Source: Akkermansia massiliensis (GTDB taxonomy: Bacteria; Verrucomicrobiota; Verrucomicrobiia; Verrucomicrobiales; Akkermansiaceae). From it: a stretch of DNA of 64,000 nt. The DNA lies in assembly GCF_023516715.1 (NCBI RefSeq), contig NZ_JAMGSI010000002.1, positions 1,116,001 to 1,180,000 of the forward strand, read 5' to 3'. The position numbers and the translations under genes were made by a program. The number at the start of each line of letters is the position of its first letter. The stretch's first letter is position 1. The notes under the pieces are model-generated. The model made no database searches. It was not told the DNA's origin and saw only the letters and a program-made list of their open reading frames with translations. Of this stretch, positions 1 through 20,432 are shown in pieces.

Positions 1-62
1 GGTCCATTGAGGACTGCAAGCTGGAAAATACTCCCGCGGACCAGGTGCGCATAGAGAATTGA
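1..62 (+). CDS. C-terminal end of an unidentified upstream gene (partial)
   Basis: The third forward frame is open from the window edge to a TGA at 60-62 and encodes SIEDCKLENTPADQVRIEN. The composition looks like an ordinary soluble-protein tail. Nineteen residues are too few to assign a family, and the start lies outside the window. It would be co-directional with the PPK2 gene that follows. Confidence 0.3.
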   Translation, partial: SIEDCKLENTPADQVRIEN

Positions 63-190
63 CGTTTCCCTGCGCCATTCCGCCTTTTGCGGATTTTTCA
101 TGCTGCAGGGGCCGGACGGCCGTCCGGGAGGAAGGCGGAGTTTTTTACGGTTATTTCAACGTCTTGACGCAGAACGGTGTCATTACCGGA

Positions 191-1117
191 ATGATAGATA
201 TTCCTTCCCGTCTGGTCAAACGCTGCAAAAAGTTCATTGAGCCGTACCGGGTGACGGACGGCAAGGGGTTCAAGTTATCCCACTATGATCCGGGCGATCT
301 GGGCAAGCTGGACAAGGACAGCAAGAAGGAAGCCGTGGACAAGCTGGAGAAGGGCATTGAGCTGCTGGAACAGCTTCAGGAGGTGCTTTATGCCAGCGAA
401 TCCTATGCGCTGCTGGTGGTGCTGCAGGCGATGGATAGCGCGGGCAAGGACGGCATTGTGAAGCATGTGATGGGCGGAGTCAATCCGCAGGGGTGCGTGG
501 TCAGCAGCTTCAAGCCGCCCTCCACGCTGGAACGGAGCCATGATTTCCTGTGGCGGTGCGTGGCCCGTCTTCCCCGGCGGGGAATGATCGGCATTTTCAA
601 CCGTTCCTACTATGAAGAAGTGCTGAGCGTGCGCGTGCATCCGGAATTTCTGGCGGGGGAGGGGTTTGATCCCGTCCATGCCAAGGGAGCCTTCTGGAAG
701 GAGAGGTACAGATCCATCAATAATCTGGAACGCCATCTGCTCGCCAACAAGACGCGCATCGTGAAGATATTCCTTAACCTTTCCAGTGAGGAACAGAGAA
801 AGCGCCTTCTGGCGCGGCTGGACACCCCGCACAAGAACTGGAAGTTTTCAGAGGGGGACATCCACGAACGCGAGTTCTGGGACCAGTACCAGAAGGCGTA
901 TGAGGAAATGATACGTCATACTTCTTCCCGGGACGCGCCGTGGTATGTGGTGCCGGCGGACAACAAGTGGTATTCCAGGCTTGTCTGCATGTGCGCCATT
1001 GTGGAGGCACTGGCGGAAATGAAACTGGAATACCCTAAGGTGTCCGGGGAATTGAAGGCGTTCTTCCCTGAATTCCGGGAGGAACTGGAACGCCCCCTGT
1101 CCGGGGACAGGGATTGA
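191..1117 (+). CDS. ppk2: PPK2-family polyphosphate:nucleotide phosphotransferase
   Basis: This enzyme should transfer phosphate between inorganic polyphosphate and nucleoside mono- or diphosphates in the cytoplasm. The 308-residue product has the PPK2 Walker A motif MDSAGKDG at about residues 81-88 and the Walker B/lid motif NRSYYEE at about 137-143. It also has the family signatures GVNPQGC and HDFLWR. The length matches stand-alone single-domain PPK2 proteins. An upstream ATG at 59 would add 44 residues with no family resemblance, so I use the ATG at 191, where MIDIPSRL begins the alignable part. A second PPK2 domain lies at 13766-15109 in a Nudix fusion. The sequence resembles the AMP/ADP-phosphorylating subgroup, but substrate preference cannot be fixed by eye. 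Confidence 0.9.
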   Translation: MIDIPSRLVKRCKKFIEPYRVTDGKGFKLSHYDPGDLGKLDKDSKKEAVDKLEKGIELLEQLQEVLYASESYALLVVLQAMDSAGKDGIVKHVMGGVNPQGCVVSSFKPPSTLERSHDFLWRCVARLPRRGMIGIFNRSYYEEVLSVRVHPEFLAGEGFDPVHAKGAFWKERYRSINNLERHLLANKTRIVKIFLNLSSEEQRKRLLARLDTPHKNWKFSEGDIHEREFWDQYQKAYEEMIRHTSSRDAPWYVVPADNKWYSRLVCMCAIVEALAEMKLEYPKVSGELKAFFPEFREELERPLSGDRD

Positions 1118-6644: not shown

Positions 6645-7328
6645 TCAAGCGTGGAACGGGTCTGCCGTGCGCCATGACGGAGCTTTTCCCTGTGCGAGAC
6701 GGCATGCGCGCTCAATGATTTGAAAGGCAATTTGCGTTTTAGGCGCTTTTTCCAAAAGCTCCGTCCGGTCCGGGTAAACGAGCAGCACTTCATTTTCAGA
6801 GGAGTTAAAACCAATGTCACTGCGGGAAACGTCGTTGGCCACAATCATGTCGCACCGCTTGCGTTCCAGTTTGCCGCGCGCGTAATTTTCCACGTCATGG
6901 GTTTCCGCCGCGAAGCCTACCAGAATGCCTCTGAAGCCGAATTCCGCGCGCATGGAGCCAAGAATATCCGCAGTACGTTCCAGTTCCAAAATCATGCGCT
7001 CCCCCGTTTTCTTGATTTTGCGGTCCGGAACGGAAACGGGGCGATAATCCGCTACGGCGGCGCTGAGGATGGCGGCGTCGGCGTAGGGAGCCTGGTTTTT
7101 GACAGCATCATACATTTCCCGTGCACATTCAACCGGCAGGAAGTCCACGCCGTGCGGGATGTCCAGGGAAGTGGGGCCGGAGATGAGAAGGACGCTGTGG
7201 CCTTCGTGAACAGCCGCTTCCGCCAGGCAATACCCCATTTTTCCGGAGGAGTGGTTGGTGAGGTATCTGACGGGGTCAATAGCTTCTCTGGTGGGGCCTG
7301 CCGTGATAAGAAAACGCATGAGAGGCAT
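6645..7328 (-). CDS. coaB: Stand-alone phosphopantothenate-cysteine ligase (CoaB)
   Basis: CoaB joins cysteine to 4'-phosphopantothenate with CTP in CoA synthesis. The 227-residue product is only the C-terminal half of a usual CoaBC. It has LITAGPTREAIDPVRYLTN, HSSGKMG, SAAVADYRP, the catalytic KIKK segment, GFAAET and IVANDVS. The CoaC half is absent here and is encoded at 19511-20050 on the same strand. The start is MPLM at 7328, or M4 at 7319. rsgA follows downstream. Confidence 0.9.
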   Translation of the reverse strand: MPLMRFLITAGPTREAIDPVRYLTNHSSGKMGYCLAEAAVHEGHSVLLISGPTSLDIPHGVDFLPVECAREMYDAVKNQAPYADAAILSAAVADYRPVSVPDRKIKKTGERMILELERTADILGSMRAEFGFRGILVGFAAETHDVENYARGKLERKRCDMIVANDVSRSDIGFNSSENEVLLVYPDRTELLEKAPKTQIAFQIIERACRLAQGKAPSWRTADPFHA

Positions 7329-8592: not shown

Positions 8593-8753
8593 GAGGCTGG
8601 GGCGCTTTTACAGAAAGCCGTTTGTGTTCCATGACACCGGAGCTCAGTAACAGCGGCTCCCTCCCTATCAATGCTTTTACAGATGTTTATGAGGCGATTC
8701 TATTGCGGCAGAAATATATTGCAGATTTTTTGCTCATTCGCGAATCGACTTAA
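8580..8753 (+). other. Short open frame after the desulfurase, doubtful
   Basis: An ATG overlapping the desulfurase stop region opens a 57-codon frame (MEGLRGWGAFTESRL...) that ends TAA at 8751-8753, running into the end of the autotransporter gene on the other strand. I recognise no motif and there is no good ribosome-binding site. It is listed because it is the only possible content of the 157-bp gap at 8593-8749. It may not be expressed. Confidence 0.15.
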
Positions 8754-11700
8754 AATTTAAACGTGACGCCCATATTGACGTTGTGGCGCACTTTGTCCGA
8801 AACGTCCGCGGCATAGTCGGCATAGACGCTCCACTGTTCCGTGATGCTGTATCCGATGCCTGCGCCGAATACGCCAGCGTCCCTGTCCATTTTCCAGCCC
8901 CTTACCCTTATGAAGGAAGAGCCGAGCATGGCATTTACTCCGTAGCGGTCGTCGCAAAATTCGTGCGTGTAGAACATTCTGCCCGTAAAGTAGAAGCCGT
9001 TTGAAAACGCGTAAGTGCCCTCAATTCCCACAAGCGACTTCACGCTTGTATAGTTTTCTGATTCCGCGCTCATGCGTTCTTCCCCGCTTTTTTCCGTGAA
9101 CGACGGGTTCATCAGGAAGTCCGCGTTTACGCCGATTGTGGGTTTCAGGTAAAATCCGGTGTCGGCAAAAGGCTTCCACGCGTATCGAACGCCCGTGAAG
9201 ACACCGATGAGGTTTGAATTCCAATCGGCTTTGCTTTTGTTCAGGATGTTCATCCTTTCGGCTTTGTTCATGCCGAAAGCATAGGTTGCACCGAAGTACC
9301 AGTCAAAGTTGCCGAAGAACCGCCAGTCGGTGTAGGCGTTGACCGCAAGGCTTTGGGTTTCCGCCTTGCCGCAGTTGCCCTTGCCTGACGATTTTGCCTG
9401 AAAACCGCCGAAGCCGAAGCCCGCAAGAAACGTGTTACCCGCCGTGTATTCAAAATTCACCAAGCCGCCCGAAATATAGTCGCTCGACCCATCCATGTTT
9501 TCATCGCCGCCGTAGGTGGCAAACCTGTTTATGTTGCGGACGGTAATGCCTGAAAAACGCCCCCCCGAAACTTCCGTGCCGCTGCTTTTTGCGCCGAGGC
9601 CGTCGATTGCCGCGCTCGTGCGGTTGAGCGTGTCGAGGTGGATTATGTCGGCAAGATCCATGTTCATGCGCACGCTGTGCACTACCGACTGCGGAAGTAT
9701 CGCACCCAGTGTGCCGCTTTTTACCATTGCGGCGAAATTACGTTTTTTGGTAACTGCCGCCTCGTTCGCCGCGTCGTCGCCGTCGATGTATTCAAGATCG
9801 TCGTAGGTTTTTGCCAACGCCTTTTCGAATTCGTTTGTCGCAACTGCTTCGGCAAGATAGGTGTTCTTCTTGATTTCGTAGCCGACATTGCTGCCGACGT
9901 TGACGTACTTCACGGTGATGTAGGTGTTTTCAAAAGGATCCAAGTCGCCGTCGATCATGCCCGAAATGTTGTTCGAGACGACGTCGTGCGTGCCTTTCAA
10001 GGCGGTTGCGGCGGTGAGGCTTCCCGAAGAGTCGTCGGTTGCGGAGAAACCGAAGATGTTGTCGTAGTGGTTGTTGATGGTGCCGCGCAAGCCCGCGCCC
10101 CCGAGTGTCCCCGCGCTGATTACGGTCGCGGCTGAAGAGTTTATGCCGAAGACACTGTTTATCGTAAGTCTGTTCCCGCCCGCCGAAACTGAACCCGTGA
10201 GTGTTGCCGAACCTTCGTTTGACAGTATGAGGTCTGTCGTCGAAACGATGTCGCCGCTCACAGTTTTGCCGTCAAGCACATTGACATTCGTACCGCTTAC
10301 GCGGATGTTGCCGACATCGCCGACGTTCAGTCCGTTAGTGACATTTGTTGCTGAGATGTCGCCAACGGCGTTGTTTACCGTCGCCGAATTAACCGAGTTG
10401 AACGAGACGTTGCCGTTTGCGTTTTCGATTGTCACCAAAACGGCGTTTGAAATGTTTGCTGATGTCTCGACTGTGTTGACTTTAATATACCCCGAATCCT
10501 CGCCCGACGTACCGATTTCGAGCGAACCCACTGATGCGGTAATGTTCAGGCCGGCAACCGAGTCGAATTTCATTTTGCCTGAAACCGTGCCGATTGTTGA
10601 TTCTGCGGCAAGATGTTTACCCTCGATATTGCCGTTGACGACTACATTGCCTCCGTTGTTTAGCTCCATGCCGGCGTCCGCCATGAGGTCGCCATTTATC
10701 GTCGCGCTGCCGTCGAATGTCAGATAGAGGTTTTTCGAGCGGATTGCCTGGGCGCTGGAGTTTTCGTTTGCAGCGATTGCCGAGATTTCCGAACCATCGA
10801 GCATTTTTAAGAAAAGGTCGTTTTCCGTCCAAATTCCGTAGGCGTTGGAGTTTTCGCTTGAGGATAGGATTTTGCCGCCGAGGGTGATGTCAGCGTTGTC
10901 GGCGAAAATACCGTTTGCCAATCCGTTTTCAGACGAAACCGTAATGTTGCCTATGATGTTTTCATTTTGGCCCGATTTTGTAATGGAGTTTGCAAAGATA
11001 CCCGTGGCATCTGCGCCGCCTGAAACCTCCAAATTATCTATCCTGATGTTTTCGAGGTTTCCGGCTGTGGAAACAGGGTTATCTCTGCCTGGCGCGGCGA
11101 TTATGCCTGCTGCGTTGCCGCTGATTCCCGCGCTTACTTGCATATCGGATATGGTGAGGTTGCGGCCGCCTTCCGTCAGATGGATACCGGTTGCATTGGT
11201 GTACCCCTTTACTGTGATTGCATTTGCTGTCAAATCGCGCTTGACGCTTTTTGCGTATATACCCGTTGCTTCACCCTGCGTGCTGCCCGAAGTGATTGTG
11301 CTTTCGATGTCGAGTTCGCCCACGGAAAGCGAGTAGATGTCGCCCGCAGCAGAGGGGTCCTTGGCCGCGTTTTTACCAACTTTTACACCGAAGGCGTCTT
11401 TTGCTGTCACGTAAATTTGGCCCGAATAGTTATTTTTGAGCGAAACGTCGTCGCTGCCGAGCTGGTTGGCCAGTATACCTATCCCCGTGCCTTGTTTTGC
11501 ATTGATTGTAAGTGAACCCGAAATCGTCATCGCCTGCCCGTCAGAACTGCTCGACGTGTTCACACCCACGATGTAGGAGTCGTCGTCGATTGTTTTTGCG
11601 GAATTCCCGTCCACAGTGTAAATTCCCGAAATTTCGAGGTCTGTAATTTGACCGCTGGTCTTGATGAGTCCGAAATCTTTATTAGTCTCGATAGAGGAAA

Positions 11701-12241
11701 CGTTCCCGAAGCTATAATATCCACTTCCGCCCAGAACGCCTGAAGAACCTGTGGTTGTCTTGTTGTCCCACAAATACGAGCTTGCACTTACAGTGCCGTT
11801 TGTGCATCTTATGTTGCCTTGGTTTTCGATTCTGATTGTGTTGGTGAGCCGGTTCCCGTATAGTTCAAGACTGGATTGGGAATCCAAAATAAGGATTAAC
11901 CCCGTGCCGCCTTTATCAAAGTCCCCCGATGCGCCCAAACGCGAATTTTCTAATTTCAGCGTCGTGTTGTTTCCCTCAGAAGTCGGCTCCACATATTTAA
12001 TGCGGATCGAATCGGGAGATGTCCAAACGTCTTTTAAGATAATTTCTTTTGTGTCTCCGAATATTTCCGAAGTCCCAGGGACTGTGCTCCCGGGGGTTAT
12101 TGGTCCTTCCAGAGTAATGCGGTCGGCAACCGTATTGCCCTTGCCTGTTATCACAAGCGTTTCAGAGGAGGAATCGTAGTTGTATGTTTGGGCGCAGGCA
12201 ATACCAGCTGTCGCCAACAGGGAAGCAGCAATCTTTTCCAT
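8750..12241 (-). CDS. Autotransporter (type Va secretion) with beta-helix passenger
   Basis: The 1,163-residue product begins with a signal peptide (MEKIAASLLATAGIACAQ). A long Asn/Ser/Gly/Val-rich passenger follows with many short beta-strand repeats of the ITVKGYTNATGIHL kind, expected to fold as a right-handed beta-helix. The last ~280 residues (from about NRTSAAIDGLGAKSSG) form an autotransporter barrel with alternating aromatic strands. They end in NMGVTFKF with a terminal Phe, the classic Bam signal. The passenger should reach the cell surface. Base composition is clearly less GC-rich than the flanking genes and codon choice is more AT-tolerant, which suggests recent acquisition or surface-gene drift. 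The passenger gives no specific ligand. Confidence 0.85.
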   Translation of the reverse strand: MEKIAASLLATAGIACAQTYNYDSSSETLVITGKGNTVADRITLEGPITPGSTVPGTSEIFGDTKEIILKDVWTSPDSIRIKYVEPTSEGNNTTLKLENSRLGASGDFDKGGTGLILILDSQSSLELYGNRLTNTIRIENQGNIRCTNGTVSASSYLWDNKTTTGSSGVLGGSGYYSFGNVSSIETNKDFGLIKTSGQITDLEISGIYTVDGNSAKTIDDDSYIVGVNTSSSSDGQAMTISGSLTINAKQGTGIGILANQLGSDDVSLKNNYSGQIYVTAKDAFGVKVGKNAAKDPSAAGDIYSLSVGELDIESTITSGSTQGEATGIYAKSVKRDLTANAITVKGYTNATGIHLTEGGRNLTISDMQVSAGISGNAAGIIAAPGRDNPVSTAGNLENIRIDNLEVSGGADATGIFANSITKSGQNENIIGNITVSSENGLANGIFADNADITLGGKILSSSENSNAYGIWTENDLFLKMLDGSEISAIAANENSSAQAIRSKNLYLTFDGSATINGDLMADAGMELNNGGNVVVNGNIEGKHLAAESTIGTVSGKMKFDSVAGLNITASVGSLEIGTSGEDSGYIKVNTVETSANISNAVLVTIENANGNVSFNSVNSATVNNAVGDISATNVTNGLNVGDVGNIRVSGTNVNVLDGKTVSGDIVSTTDLILSNEGSATLTGSVSAGGNRLTINSVFGINSSAATVISAGTLGGAGLRGTINNHYDNIFGFSATDDSSGSLTAATALKGTHDVVSNNISGMIDGDLDPFENTYITVKYVNVGSNVGYEIKKNTYLAEAVATNEFEKALAKTYDDLEYIDGDDAANEAAVTKKRNFAAMVKSGTLGAILPQSVVHSVRMNMDLADIIHLDTLNRTSAAIDGLGAKSSGTEVSGGRFSGITVRNINRFATYGGDENMDGSSDYISGGLVNFEYTAGNTFLAGFGFGGFQAKSSGKGNCGKAETQSLAVNAYTDWRFFGNFDWYFGATYAFGMNKAERMNILNKSKADWNSNLIGVFTGVRYAWKPFADTGFYLKPTIGVNADFLMNPSFTEKSGEERMSAESENYTSVKSLVGIEGTYAFSNGFYFTGRMFYTHEFCDDRYGVNAMLGSSFIRVRGWKMDRDAGVFGAGIGYSITEQWSVYADYAADVSDKVRHNVNMGVTFKF

Positions 12242-12800: not shown

Positions 12801-13550
12801 TCAGGCGAGCTCCACCTTGACGCCGCTCTTTTCAATCTGGTCAGCCATTTCAGGAGAAAGGGCTTCATCAGTGATGAGCATGGAGATCTGTGAGGGCGCA
12901 ACGGTATAGAATGCCGGGTTGTTCGCTACGCTGGTGGAAGGCATGGCGATGATCACCTTGGCATCCGGGGGAATGACGCTCTTGATGAATTCGGATTGAA
13001 GCATGTTCTTGTATCCGGCGCCATGCTTGGGGGAGTAGCAGTCCGGCGTCAGTACAACCATGTCAATGCTCAGGGAACCTGCGGCCTTGGCGGCTTCCTG
13101 TCCCACATAGACCAGGGCTTCGCGGTCGAAGCGTCCGCCCGTGCAGTAGAAGCTCAGGTTCGGAATGCCTTCAAGCCGGGTCAGCAGCGTGGGGTTGTTG
13201 GAAACCACGTGCGTATCCCTGGAATTAATGTGGTTGCAGATCTGGTAGCCCATGGTGCTGCTGTCAATGAACATGACCACGGAAGCGGGGATGTTCTGGA
13301 CGGCTTTTTTTGCAATCCTTATGGAAACATCGTCTTGAGTGACAATGTCTTCATGGAGGGATTTATGGGTAAGGGCCAGAGCGCCGCCGTGGACGCGCTT
13401 GAGAAAGCCGCGTTTCTCAAGGTTAATCAAATCATTACGGACCGTTTCATCCGTGACCTTCATCTGTTTGGCCAGAGCAATGGTTCTTGCGGCTCCATGT
13501 TCGGCCAGCGTTTTCAGAATGAACTCTTTACGTTGGGATGCTAAATACAT
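12801..13550 (-). CDS. DeoR-family transcriptional regulator
   Basis: The 249-residue product has the N-terminal DeoR winged helix: SQRKEFILKTLAEHG, then VTDETVRNDLINLEKRGFLKRVHGGAL at about residues 32-58. A C-terminal DeoRC sugar-phosphate sensor domain follows (MFIDSSTMGYQIC, VSNNPTLL, FYCTGGRFD, MVVLTPDCYSPKHG). Members usually repress sugar-phosphate or nucleoside catabolism and are relieved by a phosphorylated sugar. No sugar operon is adjacent, so the target is unknown. The upstream AT-rich region holds palindromes that could be autoregulatory operators. Confidence 0.9.
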   Translation of the reverse strand: MYLASQRKEFILKTLAEHGAARTIALAKQMKVTDETVRNDLINLEKRGFLKRVHGGALALTHKSLHEDIVTQDDVSIRIAKKAVQNIPASVVMFIDSSTMGYQICNHINSRDTHVVSNNPTLLTRLEGIPNLSFYCTGGRFDREALVYVGQEAAKAAGSLSIDMVVLTPDCYSPKHGAGYKNMLQSEFIKSVIPPDAKVIIAMPSTSVANNPAFYTVAPSQISMLITDEALSPEMADQIEKSGVKVELA

Positions 13551-13765: not shown

Positions 13766-15109
13766 TCAATCTGGAATGATAATGGACGCCGGATCGAAGT
13801 TGGGAGTGGGGAACGTGAGCTGGAGATGGCGCAGTTTTTCCACCATCAGGCGGGCGACGACGAGGTTCCTGTACCATTTCCGGTCTGCCGGAATGATGTA
13901 CCAGGGAGCATCCGGAGTGGACGTTTTTTCAATGAGATCCTGATAGGCCGTCTGGAATTCGTCCCAGCGGTTCCGGTCATCCAGGTCGTCCATGCAGAAC
14001 TTCCAAAGTTTGTCCGGATCCTGGAGCCTGGATTCCAGCCGTCTTTTCTGTTCCGCCTTGGAAATATTCAGGAACAGCTTGATGATGACGGTGCCTTCTT
14101 CCGCAAGCATGGATTCAAAATCCAGAACGTGCTTGTAACGTCGCTTCCAGACGGGGTCCGGGAAGATTTTTTTCACGCGGACGGCGATGATGTCCTCGTA
14201 ATGGGAACGGTTGAAGATGGCGATCTGCCCCTTGGCGGGCACTTCCTTGTGCACGCGCCACAGGAAGTCGTGGTCCAGTTCTTCAATAGTGGGTTTTTTA
14301 AAGGGAACCACGTGCAGCCCCTGCGGGTCCACCCGGGAAAAGACGTGCTTGACGCATCCGTCCTTGCCGCCTGCGTCCATGGCCTGCAGAATGACGAGAA
14401 CCCTGTGCTTGTGCTGGGCGAAGAGTTTTTTCTGCAGTTCCTGCAGTTCTTCCCTCAGCTTGTCGAATTCAACCAGGGATTCTTCCTTGGTTCCGGAGAA
14501 GAGAGATTTGTCATCCGGAGAGTAATCCTTTAAACGCAGTTTTTTGCCCGGAGGCACCAGGTAACGGTTCATTGTATGCGAAGTTAACGTTGAAGAAGCG
14601 GGAGAGGAGGTGGAAGAGGTTTTCATGGCGGCGGGTTTGGCCGGAAAATCCGGCCCGAAGAATTGCTGAAGGGCGTCCTTGATGACTTTCCTTTTGAATT
14701 TGGGGAACATCTCCAGCTTGAGGTCCTGGAGGGGTATCCATTTCGTTTTTGAGAATTCAGGGCTGCGGTGCAGGTCCGTCTTGGGGCGCCTGGCCTTGCA
14801 GCGCACCAGGAAGTAGGTTTGCTCCTGGCCTATCCAGCGCGTGACTTTGCGGTTGCCGGAGGGGTATTTGTACCGCAGGCCGGGGAGGCGACTGACAATG
14901 GTGTATTCCGTGGGACGCAGGCCCACTTCCTCCCATACCTCCCGCGCGAGCGCCCGTTCAATGCTTTCATTTTTAATGACGCCTCCCTGCGGGAAGTGCC
15001 AGTACGGGTTGCGGCCGTTGTCCTTGCCCAGCAGCACGTAGCCGTCGGCGTCCATGATGACGGCTGCTGCGTTGAGTCTCCAGTTTTTGGCTGTAGATGG
15101 AGTGTCCAT
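13766..15109 (-). CDS. Nudix hydrolase (RppH/Ap4A type) fused to PPK2 polyphosphate kinase
   Basis: One uninterrupted 447-residue frame carries two enzymes. Residues ~10-150 are an RppH-like Nudix domain with WHFPQGGVIKNE and a complete Nudix box at 42-64 (G42, E48, R56, E57, E60, E61, G63). Residues 155-180 are a Ser/Thr/Pro-rich linker. Residues ~180-447 are a PPK2 domain with MDAGGKDG at ~244-251, DHDFLWR and NRSHYED at ~300-306. The product could hydrolyse nucleoside polyphosphates or RNA 5' ends and transfer polyphosphate phosphate to nucleotides. An internal Met at codon 180 (14572) could start a separate PPK2, but there is no stop between the domains. The gene is last in an operon, 16 bp after the TPR gene, and has no Shine-Dalgarno sequence. 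Confidence 0.85.
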   Translation of the reverse strand: MDTPSTAKNWRLNAAAVIMDADGYVLLGKDNGRNPYWHFPQGGVIKNESIERALAREVWEEVGLRPTEYTIVSRLPGLRYKYPSGNRKVTRWIGQEQTYFLVRCKARRPKTDLHRSPEFSKTKWIPLQDLKLEMFPKFKRKVIKDALQQFFGPDFPAKPAAMKTSSTSSPASSTLTSHTMNRYLVPPGKKLRLKDYSPDDKSLFSGTKEESLVEFDKLREELQELQKKLFAQHKHRVLVILQAMDAGGKDGCVKHVFSRVDPQGLHVVPFKKPTIEELDHDFLWRVHKEVPAKGQIAIFNRSHYEDIIAVRVKKIFPDPVWKRRYKHVLDFESMLAEEGTVIIKLFLNISKAEQKRRLESRLQDPDKLWKFCMDDLDDRNRWDEFQTAYQDLIEKTSTPDAPWYIIPADRKWYRNLVVARLMVEKLRHLQLTFPTPNFDPASIIIPD

Positions 15110-15125: not shown

Positions 15126-17789
15126 TTAACTGGCGGTTTGAGCCGGCGTTTCCGGCTTTCCGGTTTCTGGAGCGGCATTTTCCGGTTCATCCTGCCAGAT
15201 GAAGTGTTCCAGCTGGATGCGGCGCGCGTAGGCCGCCGCTTCCCTGGCTCTGGGACCGGAGGTCTGCGCCAGTTTTTTAGCCAGCGCCAGGGCGCCGTCC
15301 CAGTCCTGGAGCTGGCCCAGCAGGCGGATGGAGGCGAAACCGGCATTGTAGAACCAGTGCCAGTCCCGGCGCTTGTTGGCGGAACTGCCGCTGGGCGTAT
15401 GGGCCAGGATGGAGGCGTAGTCATCCAGCGCCTTTTTCTGGTCGTTCATCCGTTCGTAGAATTGGGCCCGCTGGGTGAGGGCCTTGAATTTCCAGGCCAG
15501 GCCCAGGTTGGGGGTGTCCAGAATTTCCGTGCACAGGTTGATGGCCTTGCGGAGGGTGTCCGAATGGGTGTCTTCCTTCGTCACCCAGGCGTCCGCCTGG
15601 ATGGAGAGGGCCAGCAGGCGCATGTAGCGCGGAAGGGGGGAGGAAAGCAGGTTTTCCAGAGCGGCGATGCATTGGTCCGCTTCTCCCATGCGCAGCAGGA
15701 CGGAGGCTTCTTCTATCCTGGCGGGCTGCGCAAAGGGGGTGTCCCCCGCGCCCAGGGTTTTGAAGATGTTCAGGGCGGCTTTCAGCGTATTGCCGGTGTT
15801 GCTTTGCTGGGCGGCTTTTCCGGCCAGGAAGAGGGCCGCCGCCTGGAGGGGGCTGCCAGGGTATTTGGAGGGGAAGGGCTGGAGGACAAGCTGCGCTTCA
15901 TGGAAATCCCCGTTCTTGTACAGGAGTTCCCCCAGCTTGAGATAGAGCATGTCCGCCTGTTTGCCTTCCGAATCCAGGGCGATGGCCTGGCGGCAGGCTT
16001 GGATGGCGCTGGGCCATTCCTGCCGGCTTTCCGCCTCCAGGATGTTCAGCCGCGCAAGCTGCATGGTCTGTTCCGGAGTCAGCTGTTCTTTTTCCAGCGG
16101 CGGAAGAATGGCCTGCACGGTTTCAAGGTCCGGCGGGTTGAGGTTCAGGGCCACTTCCGCCTGGTCCAGCCGGGCCTGGGTTTTCAGGGCCGGGTCTGTC
16201 GCCAGTGCCACGAAGGACGCCAGCAGTTCGGGAGCCTGGGGGTTCATTCTTTTGGCGGCGTAATGGGCCTGTTCAAAGAGGATGTGTTCCCGGAGCTGGG
16301 CAGAGCCGGCGGCTTCCTTGACCAGGGCGGCGGCTCCAGCGGCGTCATTGGCGTTCAGCGCAGCCAGATTTTCATTGAACAGGGCGCTTTCCGCCGTTTT
16401 TTCAGAGGCGCGCCGGGCTGCTTCCCGGAAGAGGCTCTGCGCCAGAGGGTAGTCTCCCTTGCGGAAGGCCAGGGCTCCCTGCTGGAAGACGAGGCCGGGG
16501 GACGTTCCGGGATATTTGGAGATAAGGCGTTCCGCGTCTTCCACGCGGTTTTTGTCCAGCAGAGTGGTGATGGTATTCAGGGAAAGGGTCTGGACGGGAA
16601 GGCTCTGAGGATATTTGGAGAGGCCGTCCTCCGCCATTTTGACAGCTCCCGCCAGGTCGTCCTTTGCCAGAAGCAGGCTTCCCATGGCATACATGGCTGC
16701 CGGCTGGCGGCCCGCATCCCTGGCATTCACCCAGCCGGTGAGTTTTTCCAGCGCCTGGGGATTGGTGCGGAAGATGTCCTCCTCCAGCAGGATGTTGAAG
16801 GCGTCCATCAGCAGGGAGGATTCCGATTTGCCGCCAATGAACGCCAGCAGGCGTTCTTCCGCCGTTCCGGCAGTGTGTGGGGCTTCCTCTTCCTGAGGCT
16901 GGGCGCGCGTTTCCTCTTCCGCCTGTTCCGGGTTGTTTTTCTCCCGGACGATTTCCGCCCTGGCGAGGGCCAGACGGCCCAGATCCCGGATTTTCCCCGG
17001 ATAGGCCTTGTTGTCCATGACGGCGGCGAAGATTTTTATGGCCTGGTCCAGGTTCCCCTGTTTGTCGGCCAGTTTGCCTTCCACGAGTTCGGCATAAGAG
17101 CGCATGGGCAGGTCCCTGGCCGTGCCGTCGTCCATTCCCGTCTTGAATTGTTCAAGAATGGCGGCGGCCTCCGCATAGCGCCCCAGGTTCACCAGAACGT
17201 CCGCCAGAAGGACGTGCGCGGTCCGGGAGATGGCGGTGGATTCCGCCTGCCCCAGCCTGGTGAGGGCATCCAGTAAAAGCTGCCGGTCCTGAAGCTGGCG
17301 CGCGAGCTGGGCTTTCAGCTGGAAGCCGTAGAGGGAGAGCGGGTCCGTTTCAGGAATGGAGGAGAGTTTTTCCAGGGCCCTGGTAAAGGAGCCTTTGTTA
17401 AAGAGGCCCGCCGCCATCCAGTATGATTTCATGGAGGAGTCCGGAAGTTGTTCCCAGGCAGTCAGCCCTTCTTCCGTTTTTCTGGCGCGGATCAGGGCTT
17501 CCGCCAGGAAGGGGCGGATGATGGCTTTCTGGGATTCCGGAAGATTTTTGGAGTTCAGGCATTCCTGAAAATGCTTGCTGGCTTCCAGGGGCAGGCGGTC
17601 TTCCAGGGCTTTCAGACCCTGCTGGTATTTTTTATTTTTCAGGAGGGCCTGCCTGTCCTGCGAGAGGGGAGCCTCCGGAGGAGGTGTTGCCGCGGCTGCA
17701 GGGGGAGTGCCCCCCATGGTGAGCAGAAAAGCCGCGCAGGACGTAAGAACGGCAAGGGAAAAACGGGGACTGAAGAAGGTGTGCATCAT
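15126..17789 (-). CDS. Large secreted TPR-repeat protein
   Basis: The 887-residue product has a signal peptide (MMHTFFSPRFSLAVLTSCAAF, Ala-rich cleavage region) and is then almost entirely helical. It shows many degenerate tetratricopeptide repeats, for example LSKYPQSLPVQTLSLN, GALAFRKGDYPLAQSLFREA and LGELLYKNGDFHEAQLVLQP. It should act as a periplasmic or outer-membrane-associated scaffold. No enzyme motif is visible. It starts 7 bp after the M23 peptidase gene, which suggests a shared envelope role. The exact partner is unknown. Confidence 0.8.
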   Translation of the reverse strand: MMHTFFSPRFSLAVLTSCAAFLLTMGGTPPAAAATPPPEAPLSQDRQALLKNKKYQQGLKALEDRLPLEASKHFQECLNSKNLPESQKAIIRPFLAEALIRARKTEEGLTAWEQLPDSSMKSYWMAAGLFNKGSFTRALEKLSSIPETDPLSLYGFQLKAQLARQLQDRQLLLDALTRLGQAESTAISRTAHVLLADVLVNLGRYAEAAAILEQFKTGMDDGTARDLPMRSYAELVEGKLADKQGNLDQAIKIFAAVMDNKAYPGKIRDLGRLALARAEIVREKNNPEQAEEETRAQPQEEEAPHTAGTAEERLLAFIGGKSESSLLMDAFNILLEEDIFRTNPQALEKLTGWVNARDAGRQPAAMYAMGSLLLAKDDLAGAVKMAEDGLSKYPQSLPVQTLSLNTITTLLDKNRVEDAERLISKYPGTSPGLVFQQGALAFRKGDYPLAQSLFREAARRASEKTAESALFNENLAALNANDAAGAAALVKEAAGSAQLREHILFEQAHYAAKRMNPQAPELLASFVALATDPALKTQARLDQAEVALNLNPPDLETVQAILPPLEKEQLTPEQTMQLARLNILEAESRQEWPSAIQACRQAIALDSEGKQADMLYLKLGELLYKNGDFHEAQLVLQPFPSKYPGSPLQAAALFLAGKAAQQSNTGNTLKAALNIFKTLGAGDTPFAQPARIEEASVLLRMGEADQCIAALENLLSSPLPRYMRLLALSIQADAWVTKEDTHSDTLRKAINLCTEILDTPNLGLAWKFKALTQRAQFYERMNDQKKALDDYASILAHTPSGSSANKRRDWHWFYNAGFASIRLLGQLQDWDGALALAKKLAQTSGPRAREAAAYARRIQLEHFIWQDEPENAAPETGKPETPAQTAS

Positions 17790-17796
17790 CGTAGGA

Positions 17797-18846
17797 TTAT
17801 GATTCAGGCCCCATGAAGATGAGCCGGATGTAGCGTTTGCCGGAGGCGGTCAGCTTCGGATCTTTGCTGGAGCCGGAAACGCGGTTGCAGGTCCTGTACA
17901 GTTGGGAGAAGGGATGGGGAACAGCCCGGATGACGGAGGGTTCCGTGCAGGGTTGGTCGGAGGGAGTCACGGAAACGGGAACTCCCGTTCCCGTAAAGCT
18001 GATTTCCCAGGACTTGGGATTGGCCGGTCCCGGTTTCAGCAGGAAGGGGTAGCGTTTGACAAGATTGGGCAGGCTTCCGGTAGATGGAGCGCGTACGACG
18101 TACTGAACGGGCAGGGAGGAGATATGGCGGGAGAGGGAGAATTCCGCGCCGTCCTTGCACTGCATGAGGGCGGGGGCCGGGTCAAAACCGGCCAGATTCA
18201 GGCCGTTGTAGGCGCCATGGCGGTTGGGGGTACCCAGTTTCAGGCTGGAATACCAGTTTTCAAAGTCGTCCTGGAGCTTGAGGCAAAGTTCCAGATGCAC
18301 ATGGGCGCGTGTTTTGTTCAGGCCCACTCCGGAGTAGCCCAGTTTTCCGATGACGTTTCCGGTGCCTACCCGGTCCCCCTCCTTGCAGGAGACGGAAGCC
18401 AGATGGGCGTACAGGCTGTAAAGCGGGCCGTCCGCCAATTGGTGTTCGATGACCACATAGCGGCCGTAGTTGCTGTGGGTGGGGTTGGCGGAAGCGTGGA
18501 CCACGGTGCCTCCGGCTACGGGATGCACGTCGTCCAGCGGAATGCCGGAGGCGTCGCGCCTGAGCGGCTTGATATCGATTCCTTCATGGAATTTGACGGC
18601 TACGGGGCCTGCCTGGGTTCTGACGAGGGTCCGGGTAAAGCCGTAGGCTCCCGCCTCCCAGGGCTGGGATTTCTTCCCTTCAAAGTTCCGGTCCACGTAC
18701 ATGTAGAAGTCCTGCGGACGGTTGTCCAGCAAGGCCGTGTTTTCCGTGGGGAAGCGCACGACAATATCCGCCATCAGGAATGGCATGCTCCAGAAGAACA
18801 AGAGGATGCCGATCAGGGAAGGGAAGAACTTGCCGTGCATGCTCAT
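17797..18846 (-). CDS. M23-family (LytM-type) metallopeptidase
   Basis: The 349-residue product has an N-terminal signal/anchor (PSLIGILLFFWSMPFLMA) and a peptidase M23 domain. The zinc ligands are visible as FHEGIDI (H-x3-D), SLYAHLASVSC and AHVHLEL (HxH). Such enzymes cleave peptidoglycan cross-bridges or stems in the periplasm, and the set of ligands suggests it is active. The C-terminal ~120 residues are a beta-rich extension with no motif I can name. It sits between a lipoprotein and a TPR protein in a tight operon. Confidence 0.85.
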   Translation of the reverse strand: MSMHGKFFPSLIGILLFFWSMPFLMADIVVRFPTENTALLDNRPQDFYMYVDRNFEGKKSQPWEAGAYGFTRTLVRTQAGPVAVKFHEGIDIKPLRRDASGIPLDDVHPVAGGTVVHASANPTHSNYGRYVVIEHQLADGPLYSLYAHLASVSCKEGDRVGTGNVIGKLGYSGVGLNKTRAHVHLELCLKLQDDFENWYSSLKLGTPNRHGAYNGLNLAGFDPAPALMQCKDGAEFSLSRHISSLPVQYVVRAPSTGSLPNLVKRYPFLLKPGPANPKSWEISFTGTGVPVSVTPSDQPCTEPSVIRAVPHPFSQLYRTCNRVSGSSKDPKLTASGKRYIRLIFMGPES

Positions 18847-19510: not shown

Positions 19511-20050
19511 TTACGGCAGGAGGGAGAGCGTTTTTTGAACAATCAGGTCTACTGGCATCAGTTTTCCCGCTCCTTCCGCTCCGCAGGCCAGCACGCCGGA
19601 TTCACAGGGCCCCAGAATGCAGTGGCCCTTTCTTTGTTTCAGGACGGCCGCATTTTGCTGCGTGGCCGTGTGTTCCCACATGTGGACGTTCATGGCCGGA
19701 CAGATGAGCACCGGGGCCTGGCAGGCCAGATAGAGGGAGCTGAGCATGTCCGGGGCGAAGCCGTGGGCGAAGTTGGCCATGGTGTTGGCCGTGGCGGGGG
19801 CCACGAGCAGAAGGTCCGCCCGCTGGGCCAGTTGGATGTGCGGGGGAACCCAGTCCGCCTTTTCATCCTCAAAGGAGGAGAAGACGGGATTGCGGGAGAT
19901 CGTGTGCAGGGTGAGGGCTGTAACGAATTCCAGGGCCTTGGCCGTGCAGACGCAGTGCACCTCATGCCCGCTTTTGACGAGGGCGGAAGCGATGTCCGCC
20001 GCCTTGTACGCGGCAATGGAGCCGGTGATGCCCAGAATGATGCAGGCCAT
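19511..20050 (-). CDS. coaC: Stand-alone phosphopantothenoylcysteine decarboxylase (CoaC)
   Basis: CoaC decarboxylates 4'-phosphopantothenoylcysteine with FMN in CoA synthesis. The 179-residue product has the flavoprotein signatures ILGITGSIAAYKAADI, the catalytic His in PHIQLAQRADLLLVAPATAN, the PAMN loop in ICPAMNVHMW and the active-site Cys in GVLACGAEGAGKL. It ends after this domain, so the ligase half is separate (coaB, 6645-7328). The start MACIILG at 20050 fits better than 20095, which adds a Lys/Pro-rich stretch. The RelE-like gene is 13 bp upstream. Confidence 0.9.
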   Translation of the reverse strand: MACIILGITGSIAAYKAADIASALVKSGHEVHCVCTAKALEFVTALTLHTISRNPVFSSFEDEKADWVPPHIQLAQRADLLLVAPATANTMANFAHGFAPDMLSSLYLACQAPVLICPAMNVHMWEHTATQQNAAVLKQRKGHCILGPCESGVLACGAEGAGKLMPVDLIVQKTLSLLP

Positions 20051-20063
20051 GGGTGGGGAGGGG

Positions 20064-20432
20064 TCAGGCTTTGGAGGCTTTTTTGCCTTCGTCAATGAGT
20101 TTCCAGAAGTGTTTGGACTGGCTCAGGATTTCATCTTCCCCTGCGGTCGGGGAGATGTTGGTGCGGAACAGAAAGTCGTTCAGGCTGTTGGCGTGCAGAA
20201 CGCGGTGGACGACCACTTTGCCTTCAATGACTTCAAAGTAGATGCGGTAGTCCCTGGCTACGTAGCGGTAAAGAATTTTGCCATCCTTTTCCATCTTGCC
20301 GAAGCGGGCGTCATCAAGGGTTTGGAGGGTGGATTCAGAGACCTGGAAGTCCCCGAGCAGGTCCAGTTGTTCCAGGGTGGGGATGCTGGATACTTCCGCA
20401 GCGCTGATTTTATTGAAGACGATTTGAAGCAC
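20064..20432 (-). CDS. RelE/ParE-fold small protein, no antitoxin seen
   Basis: The 122-residue product has a RelE/ParE-superfamily-like core in residues ~35-85: DDARFGKMEKDGKILYRY, then VARDYRIYFEVIEGKVVV and HRVLHANSLNDFLFR. This fits the basic-strand/YRI/YEV...VLRV pattern of that fold. An extra N-terminal segment and a charged C-terminal helix flank it. No antitoxin-like gene is next to it; it is the first gene before coaC. It may be a domesticated RelE-fold protein and not an active toxin. The family assignment is by pattern only. Confidence 0.55.
   Translation of the reverse strand: MLQIVFNKISAAEVSSIPTLEQLDLLGDFQVSESTLQTLDDARFGKMEKDGKILYRYVARDYRIYFEVIEGKVVVHRVLHANSLNDFLFRTNISPTAGEDEILSQSKHFWKLIDEGKKASKA

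Follow-up and report, generated by a model that had tools for sequence, protein, structure and literature searches.

Enzymes of known structure are related to each half of the protein described here. E. coli RppH, a Nudix hydrolase, bonds the 5' phosphates of pppGpp through R8, N10, R27, Q37, Y77, Q95 and K140, and the residues that hold the base include S32, V137 and F139 (excerpts of PMC7144940); this native numbering equals the chain number of 4s2v minus one, and the chain of 2kdv starts at 6 instead of 7. The solved class III polyphosphate kinases 2 (PPK2) of M. ruber and D. radiodurans (5lc9, 5o6k, 6aqe; family TIGR03709) are stand-alone proteins of 260-310 amino acids. Class III is recognised by an RSxY motif followed by Glu and by a Gln preceding Walker A (rules given in excerpts of PMC8776046 and PMC11641546). 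The nearest precedent that we saw for an inactive PPK2 domain retained in one chain is PPK2C of P. aeruginosa (PA3455), a class II protein with two fused PPK2 domains, the N-terminal one of which is inactive (PMC8776046, in excerpt).

In the stretch of 64,000 nucleotides from Akkermansia massiliensis that we analysed, hereafter the window, a Nudix domain and a class III PPK2 domain are encoded by one gene. The features referred to below are the following.

13766..15109, minus strand: Nudix-PPK2 fusion gene of 447 amino acids, with its ATG at 15109 and its stop codon at 13766-13768
14675..15079, minus strand: Nudix domain, residues 11-145, with the Nudix box at residues 42-63 (GGVIKNESIERALAREVWEEVG)
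14570..14650, minus strand: Ser/Thr/Pro-rich linker, about residues 154-180, with a pLDDT below 50 at 157-180
13787..14569, minus strand: class III PPK2 domain, residues 181-441, with Q242, D245-AGGK249, R301-SHY304, Glu305 and a lid around 357-379
15126..17789, minus strand: TPR-repeat protein, directly upstream of the fusion gene
17797..18846, minus strand: M23 peptidase, a neighbour
12801..13550, minus strand: DeoR-type regulator, the downstream neighbour
59..1117, plus strand: second, stand-alone PPK2 of class III type (RSYYE at Walker B), with a likely ATG at 191, about 13 kb from the fusion

The fusion shares Walker A (DxxGK), RSxY with Glu, the Gln and the lid with the solved class III enzymes, but here a Nudix domain and a linker precede the start, and sister Akkermansia species carry a fusion in which the active-site motifs have been erased. 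The partner also differs from that in PPK2C: there an active PPK2, here a Nudix hydrolase; PPK2 activity may be missing altogether from the degenerate chains.

The plus strand of positions 13766-15109 is interrupted by stop codons; the minus strand encodes 447 amino acids followed by a stop codon from the ATG at 15109. The single frame with both domains that an earlier note on this DNA had described, naming no strand, is thus found on the minus strand. The open frame runs on upstream to 15424, into the TPR gene on the same strand. Nevertheless, the ATG at 15109 is likely to be the start of the fusion gene, because an ATG stands in the same register in most intact relatives (GTG in the G027 fusion) and because its position lies just past the TPR stop codon. 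The same two-domain frame recurs with 87-99% identity in the A. muciniphila group and with about 60-72% identity in A. glycaniphila and other species, and it is therefore not due to chance. A stop codon or frameshift at 14575-14660, which the earlier note had named as counter-evidence, is absent, and the linker, 28-33 codons long, is open in all 16 intact loci examined. The fusion gene is genuine and not an artefact.

Profile matches and motif checks agreed with the initial view that one chain contains both a Nudix box and a PPK2 domain in complete form. Pfam placed a NUDIX domain at residues 11-145 (72.5 bits, cut-off 21.1) and a PPK2 domain at residues 210-427 (239.1 bits, cut-off 22.3), and the NCBIfam model TIGR03709 matched residues 181-441 (362.3 bits, cut-off 247.2). 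The PPK2 half missed the cut-off of the equivalog NF042973, ADP-polyphosphate phosphotransferase (284.6 versus 450 bits). The Nudix box, Walker A (DxxGK, with DASGK in two loci) and Walker B (RSxY followed by the class residue Glu) were complete in 16/16 intact loci; the lid aligned to that of M. ruber PPK2 without gaps, and its K-x-W-K-(F/L) pattern was likewise present in 16/16. Judged by these residues, the PPK2 half carries the signature of class III, the class that uses nucleoside mono- and diphosphates. The solved relatives were E. coli RppH over residues 9-152 and, over residues 179-445, M. ruber PPK2-III (5lc9), besides the D. radiodurans class III enzyme. A structure model of the fusion, based on 10 sequences (mean pLDDT 65.7, pTM 0.51) and used for domain limits and fold match only, has two folded parts, and pLDDT values below 50 also occur in stretches inside both domains. 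With this model, Foldseek returned PPK2-III 5o6k (TMt 0.86) and RppH 4s2y (TMt 0.75). Both halves are under purifying selection in the A. muciniphila group (dN/dS of 0.02-0.05 for PPK2 and 0.03-0.14 for Nudix in 10 pairs). The sequence of the linker varies freely, with a pooled pN/pS of 0.65 in 11 linkers of the same length; this fast evolution, together with the low model confidence, argues against a rigid substrate channel.

The Nudix half matched RppH more strongly than the Ap4A hydrolase 1f3y (57.6 versus 40.7 bits). In the alignment, RppH residues R8, N10, Q37, Y77, Q95 and K140 are retained as R11, N13, Q41, Y80, Q95 and K139, and F139 is retained as F138, while Tyr36 and Pro136 take the places of S32 and V137. 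R27 aligns with Asp30, but this pairing hinges on where the gap is set in a variable loop, with K29 and R33 close by. The fusion therefore has the same complete Nudix box as RppH and the asymmetric Ap4A hydrolases (4s2v, 1f3y) and most of the residues that hold the 5' phosphates, yet it differs from RppH in having WHxPQGG instead of WQFPQGG, in S32 and probably R27, and in its C-terminal PPK2. These residues suggest that catalysis has been kept and that base recognition has changed. The fused Nudix domain missed the NCBIfam RppH cut-offs (at best 84.1 versus 118 bits), although this is a weak test, as the stand-alone RppH-like gene located elsewhere in the same genome (G000:C1:914668) also falls short (105.8 versus 139 bits). 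Given this stand-alone gene, the fused Nudix domain need not be the RNA 5'-end enzyme. We placed 78 Nudix domains in an unrooted tree (14 from intact fusions, 28 from degenerate fusions, 13 stand-alone from Akkermansia and 23 stand-alone from others). A branch with 100/100 support separates the 42 fused rows from the 36 stand-alone RppH-like rows, including the stand-alone copies of the same genomes, and the degenerate-fusion rows form one group (99/97). The RppH/Ap4A type that had been proposed was right, and can be refined: the fused domain is related to, but diverged from, an RppH-like gene that the genome also carries on its own.

The same two-domain order is found far beyond the window, a spread that the earlier note, which had suggested such a search, had missed. 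Among the 76 genomes of the genus, 17 have an intact fusion, and in 28 the PPK2 half of the fused frame is degenerate (the G028 frame lacks its first residues, at a contig end). The total is therefore 45/76, or 46 when one further fusion in G090, cut by a contig end within the Nudix half, is counted, and the named records include A. muciniphila and A. glycaniphila. No fusion was detected in 30/76 genomes, several of which are incomplete MAGs, so that some absences may be gaps. In the other genera of the family, 20/21 genomes have a PPK2 without a Nudix half, 54-68% identical to the fused one, and the 21st (G337) gave a weaker PPK2 match only. An RppH-like Nudix match was found once in 97/103 other-genus genomes and not at all in 6/103. 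No Nudix-PPK2 fusion was seen outside the genus among the matches listed for 285 genomes of the class, a list from which weak or degenerate fusions may have escaped, and a pattern-based scan of GTDB, which reaches close relatives only, gave 9 loci, 7 of them fusions, all in Akkermansia or Akkermansiaceae records. We infer that the fusion arose a single time, at the root of Akkermansia or within it, by the in-frame joining of an RppH-type Nudix gene to the class III PPK2 gene of this lineage. In the sister genome G248 (L080), a Nudix gene is located ~2.4 kb upstream of a stand-alone PPK2; as there was none near the PPK2 in the other 11 sister loci fetched, this arrangement is not taken as a pre-fusion state. 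Two long PPK2 frames, in G174 (838 amino acids) and G208 (826 amino acids), were considered as other fusions and rejected: Pfam showed no second domain in either, and the extra part of the G174 frame is antisense to the gene of a PLP-dependent enzyme.

The genetic context of the fusion is not uniform. On the A. muciniphila side it is flanked by the TPR and DeoR genes. In A. glycaniphila and G027, both with intact fusions, and in 27/28 degenerate loci it lies behind LplA-like and pseudopilin-like genes, the 28th locus being at a contig end, and the TPR gene is not beside it in these genomes. This shared synteny agrees with the Nudix tree. The genes that precede the fusion there are an LplA-like gene and three pseudopilin-like genes, two of the three recognised by Pfam (L093 6570-10070, L091 1243-4554, and others). 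The LplA gene was sought in 14 genomes and found in 12 (nine without a fusion and three with an intact fusion elsewhere); within about 1.5 kb on each side of it in these 12 loci there was no Nudix-PPK2 match (best E 0.24). The neighbourhood was rejected as a guide to function because A. muciniphila and A. glycaniphila do not share it, and the coaC, M23 and TPR genes around the fusion in the window are indeed as uninformative as had been thought. Further features of the window may be mentioned. The two CoaBC halves look split, with a frame read from its sequence as CoaB-like at 6645-7328 (minus) and a flavoprotein that is CoaC-like by family profile matches at 19511-20095 (minus), about 12 kb apart. 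Between the downstream DeoR gene and a NifS-like gene lies a gene for an autotransporter-like protein of 1163 amino acids (8750-12241, minus), both labels being readings of the sequence. The second PPK2 is present in 14/17 intact-fusion genomes, in 12 of them within about 15 kb of the fusion, and in 0/28 degenerate-fusion genomes at the Pfam threshold.

In the degenerate fusions, the Nudix box is complete in 28/28, and Walker A and the lid pattern are each found in 0/28. RSxY is present in one PPK2 half (L063), where it is followed by Tyr and where Cys replaces the Walker Lys; five other RSxY matches sit in the Nudix half and were excluded from this count. The length and motifs of the PPK2 half vary widely within this sister clade, and a C-terminal WYR(N/D) motif is found in 28/28. 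In hhalign comparisons with stand-alone PPK2, 10 rows of the 28 degenerate halves gave 99.9% and 8 rows gave 97.5%, and by this measure homology of the degenerate halves to PPK2 is clear. Loss of polyphosphate synthesis was rejected as a cause of the dead PPK2 halves: PPK1 (PF02503) is present in 72/76 genus genomes (absent from G066, G017, G079 and G011) and in 27/28 degenerate-fusion genomes (all but G079, with a partial match in G029). Ppx/GppA (PF02541), detected in 60/76 genomes with many matches near the cut-off, gave no usable pattern.

All 28 degenerate PPK2 halves have remained in frame. In a clade of seven species (L069, L071, L067, L068, L070, L043 and L072), the dN/dS of the PPK2 half is 0.011-0.065 (pairwise NG86, 18/21 pairs with computable dS) and its dN is below that of the Nudix half in 21/21 pairs, although it should be noted that many dS values are saturated or undefined and that the ratios are therefore rough. 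In the alignment of these species, 81% of third and 11% of second positions are variable in the PPK2 part, versus 89% and 22% in the Nudix part. The low dN/dS indicates that the pseudo-PPK2 of this clade is kept by selection. Here the pseudo-PPK2 is the more conserved of the two halves of the gene at the protein level. In 6/7 members the gene is overlapped by an antisense open frame of at least 150 codons; such frames are taken as a by-product of base composition, though they are a possible constraint. In other degenerate groups, the dN/dS of the PPK2 half is 0.115-0.19, with one distant pair at 0.25, compared with 0.02-0.05 in the intact A. muciniphila group, and outside the seven-species clade its dN is higher than the Nudix dN in 11/12 pairs. 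There, the PPK2 half is less constrained than the Nudix half, which counts against a uniform strong role.

The reading that we favour, at a probability of roughly 0.4, is that the chain would combine Nudix cleavage of (di)nucleoside polyphosphates with polyphosphate-driven rephosphorylation of AMP and ADP. The Nudix domain would hydrolyse dinucleoside or nucleoside polyphosphates (Ap4A-type alarmones, p4A/p5A) and would not be the main RppH of the cell. Its reaction would release AMP or ADP, which the tethered PPK2-III could turn into ADP or ATP using polyphosphate, so that the net outcome would be the conversion of an alarmone and polyphosphate into usable ATP. PPK1 is present in the genome of the window, and polyphosphate can therefore be made. 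The substrate step is proposed from family membership, and the cleavage of Ap4A to AMP and ATP is a listed Nudix reaction (PMC5389931, in excerpt), but RppH is a nearer solved relative than the Ap4A hydrolase. The Nudix domain is kept where PPK2 is dead, which implies that the Nudix reaction matters alone and that the PPK2 body probably acts without catalysis. The Nudix reaction would then be the indispensable part, and the PPK2 body would have a further task that needs no catalysis, be it assembly, ligand sensing or control of the Nudix domain; this task is what would remain in the pseudo-PPK2 species. The retention of the Nudix domain in 28 species with a dead PPK2 also argues against the feeding of PPK2 as the point of the fusion. 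With the PPK2 active site lost in 28 fusions, the coupling to polyphosphate-dependent phosphorylation that the earlier note had proposed cannot be the sole function throughout the family.

An alternative that we regard as a tentative candidate, less probable than the favoured reading, is that the PPK2 half is chiefly an allosteric or assembly module. The PPK2 body would then read polyphosphate and the nucleotide state and so control the Nudix domain, whose substrates would be alarmones or RNA 5' ends. The PPK2 half would still be a kinase as well in the window species, and in the sister clade the pseudo-PPK2 would be kept by selection to serve control alone. If true, polyphosphate would be linked directly, at the molecular level, to nucleotide alarmones or RNA decay, and the pseudo-PPK2 would be a regulatory domain on a different enzyme, of which we found no earlier case.

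It is unlikely, but conceivable, that the substrates of the Nudix domain are RNA 5' ends with a triphosphate, a diphosphate or an NpnN cap, and that PPK2 is a partner which responds to polyphosphate or nucleotides and sets the activity of the Nudix domain. E. coli RppH removes NpnN caps (abstract of PMC7044304) and is stimulated by the metabolic enzyme DapF (PMC7144940), a role into which a selected, non-catalytic PPK2 body would fit, and RppH proteins are the closest solved relatives, with most phosphate contacts retained. However, the nucleobase-holding S32 and, probably, R27 of E. coli RppH are not retained, the genome also has a stand-alone RppH-like gene, and the fused domain, like that stand-alone copy, is below all NCBIfam RppH cut-offs.

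We are rather doubtful of the view that two unrelated activities are merely tethered and co-expressed through an accidental fusion, leaving the PPK2 half free to go. The fast-evolving linker of low model confidence, the variable length and motifs of the PPK2 half in the sister clade, its higher dN in 11 of the 12 pairs outside the seven-species clade and the 30 genomes without a fusion would all fit this view. Against it stand the preserved frame of every degenerate PPK2 half, purifying selection on these halves (dN/dS 0.01-0.25 where computable) and, in the seven-species clade, a PPK2 dN below the Nudix dN in every pair.

Proof-reading, in which class III PPK2 would overshoot to nucleoside tetra- or higher phosphates and the Nudix domain would trim these to NTP or NDP, seems improbable to us. 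PPK2 enzymes can form oligophosphorylated nucleotides (title of PMC7595981; excerpt of PMC11641546) and the cleavage of adenosine pentaphosphate is a listed Nudix reaction (PMC5389931), but the Nudix box is complete in 28/28 species whose PPK2 half has no active-site motifs, and the second PPK2 of the genome has no fused Nudix domain. Finally, Met180 matches the start of stand-alone PPK2 and was probably the start codon of the ancestral enzyme. That Met180 is an additional or the sole start of PPK2 translation, giving a separate product, is nevertheless most improbable: the codon is ATG in 15/16 intact loci and AAAGG lies six bases ahead of its equivalent in L034, but it is ATC (Ile) in A. glycaniphila, no Shine-Dalgarno-like stretch precedes it in the window (nor does one precede the ATG at 15109), the linker is open throughout the intact loci, and 10/12 degenerate rows have no Met within about five residues before the equivalent point.

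Each half of the protein belongs to a known family. In the open-access full-text literature that we searched, we recognised no description of Nudix paired with PPK2, nor of any other enzyme with a pseudo-PPK2 attached, in keeping with the earlier note, which knew of no characterised enzyme with this pairing. The excerpt of a bile acid study (PMC7671984) mentions the NUDIX hydrolase AMUC_RS00015, which could not be tied to the fusion gene, and that of PMC11717052 contains no more than a citation of a Nudix paper. The literature searched describes neither the architecture nor its pseudo-PPK2 offshoot, nor the restriction of the fusion to a single genus within the range of our searches.

Polyphosphate, dinucleoside polyphosphates and RNA 5' ends are stress-linked pools of phosphate chains that are poorly connected with one another. 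One protein that joins enzymes of two of these pools allows their connection to be tested in a gut bacterium that can be cultured, and class III PPK2 also serves ATP regeneration. Moreover, Akkermansia and its relatives offer a natural series (stand-alone PPK2, active fusion, fusion with a dead PPK2, and no fusion), the comparison of which may separate catalytic from non-catalytic roles of the PPK2 fold.
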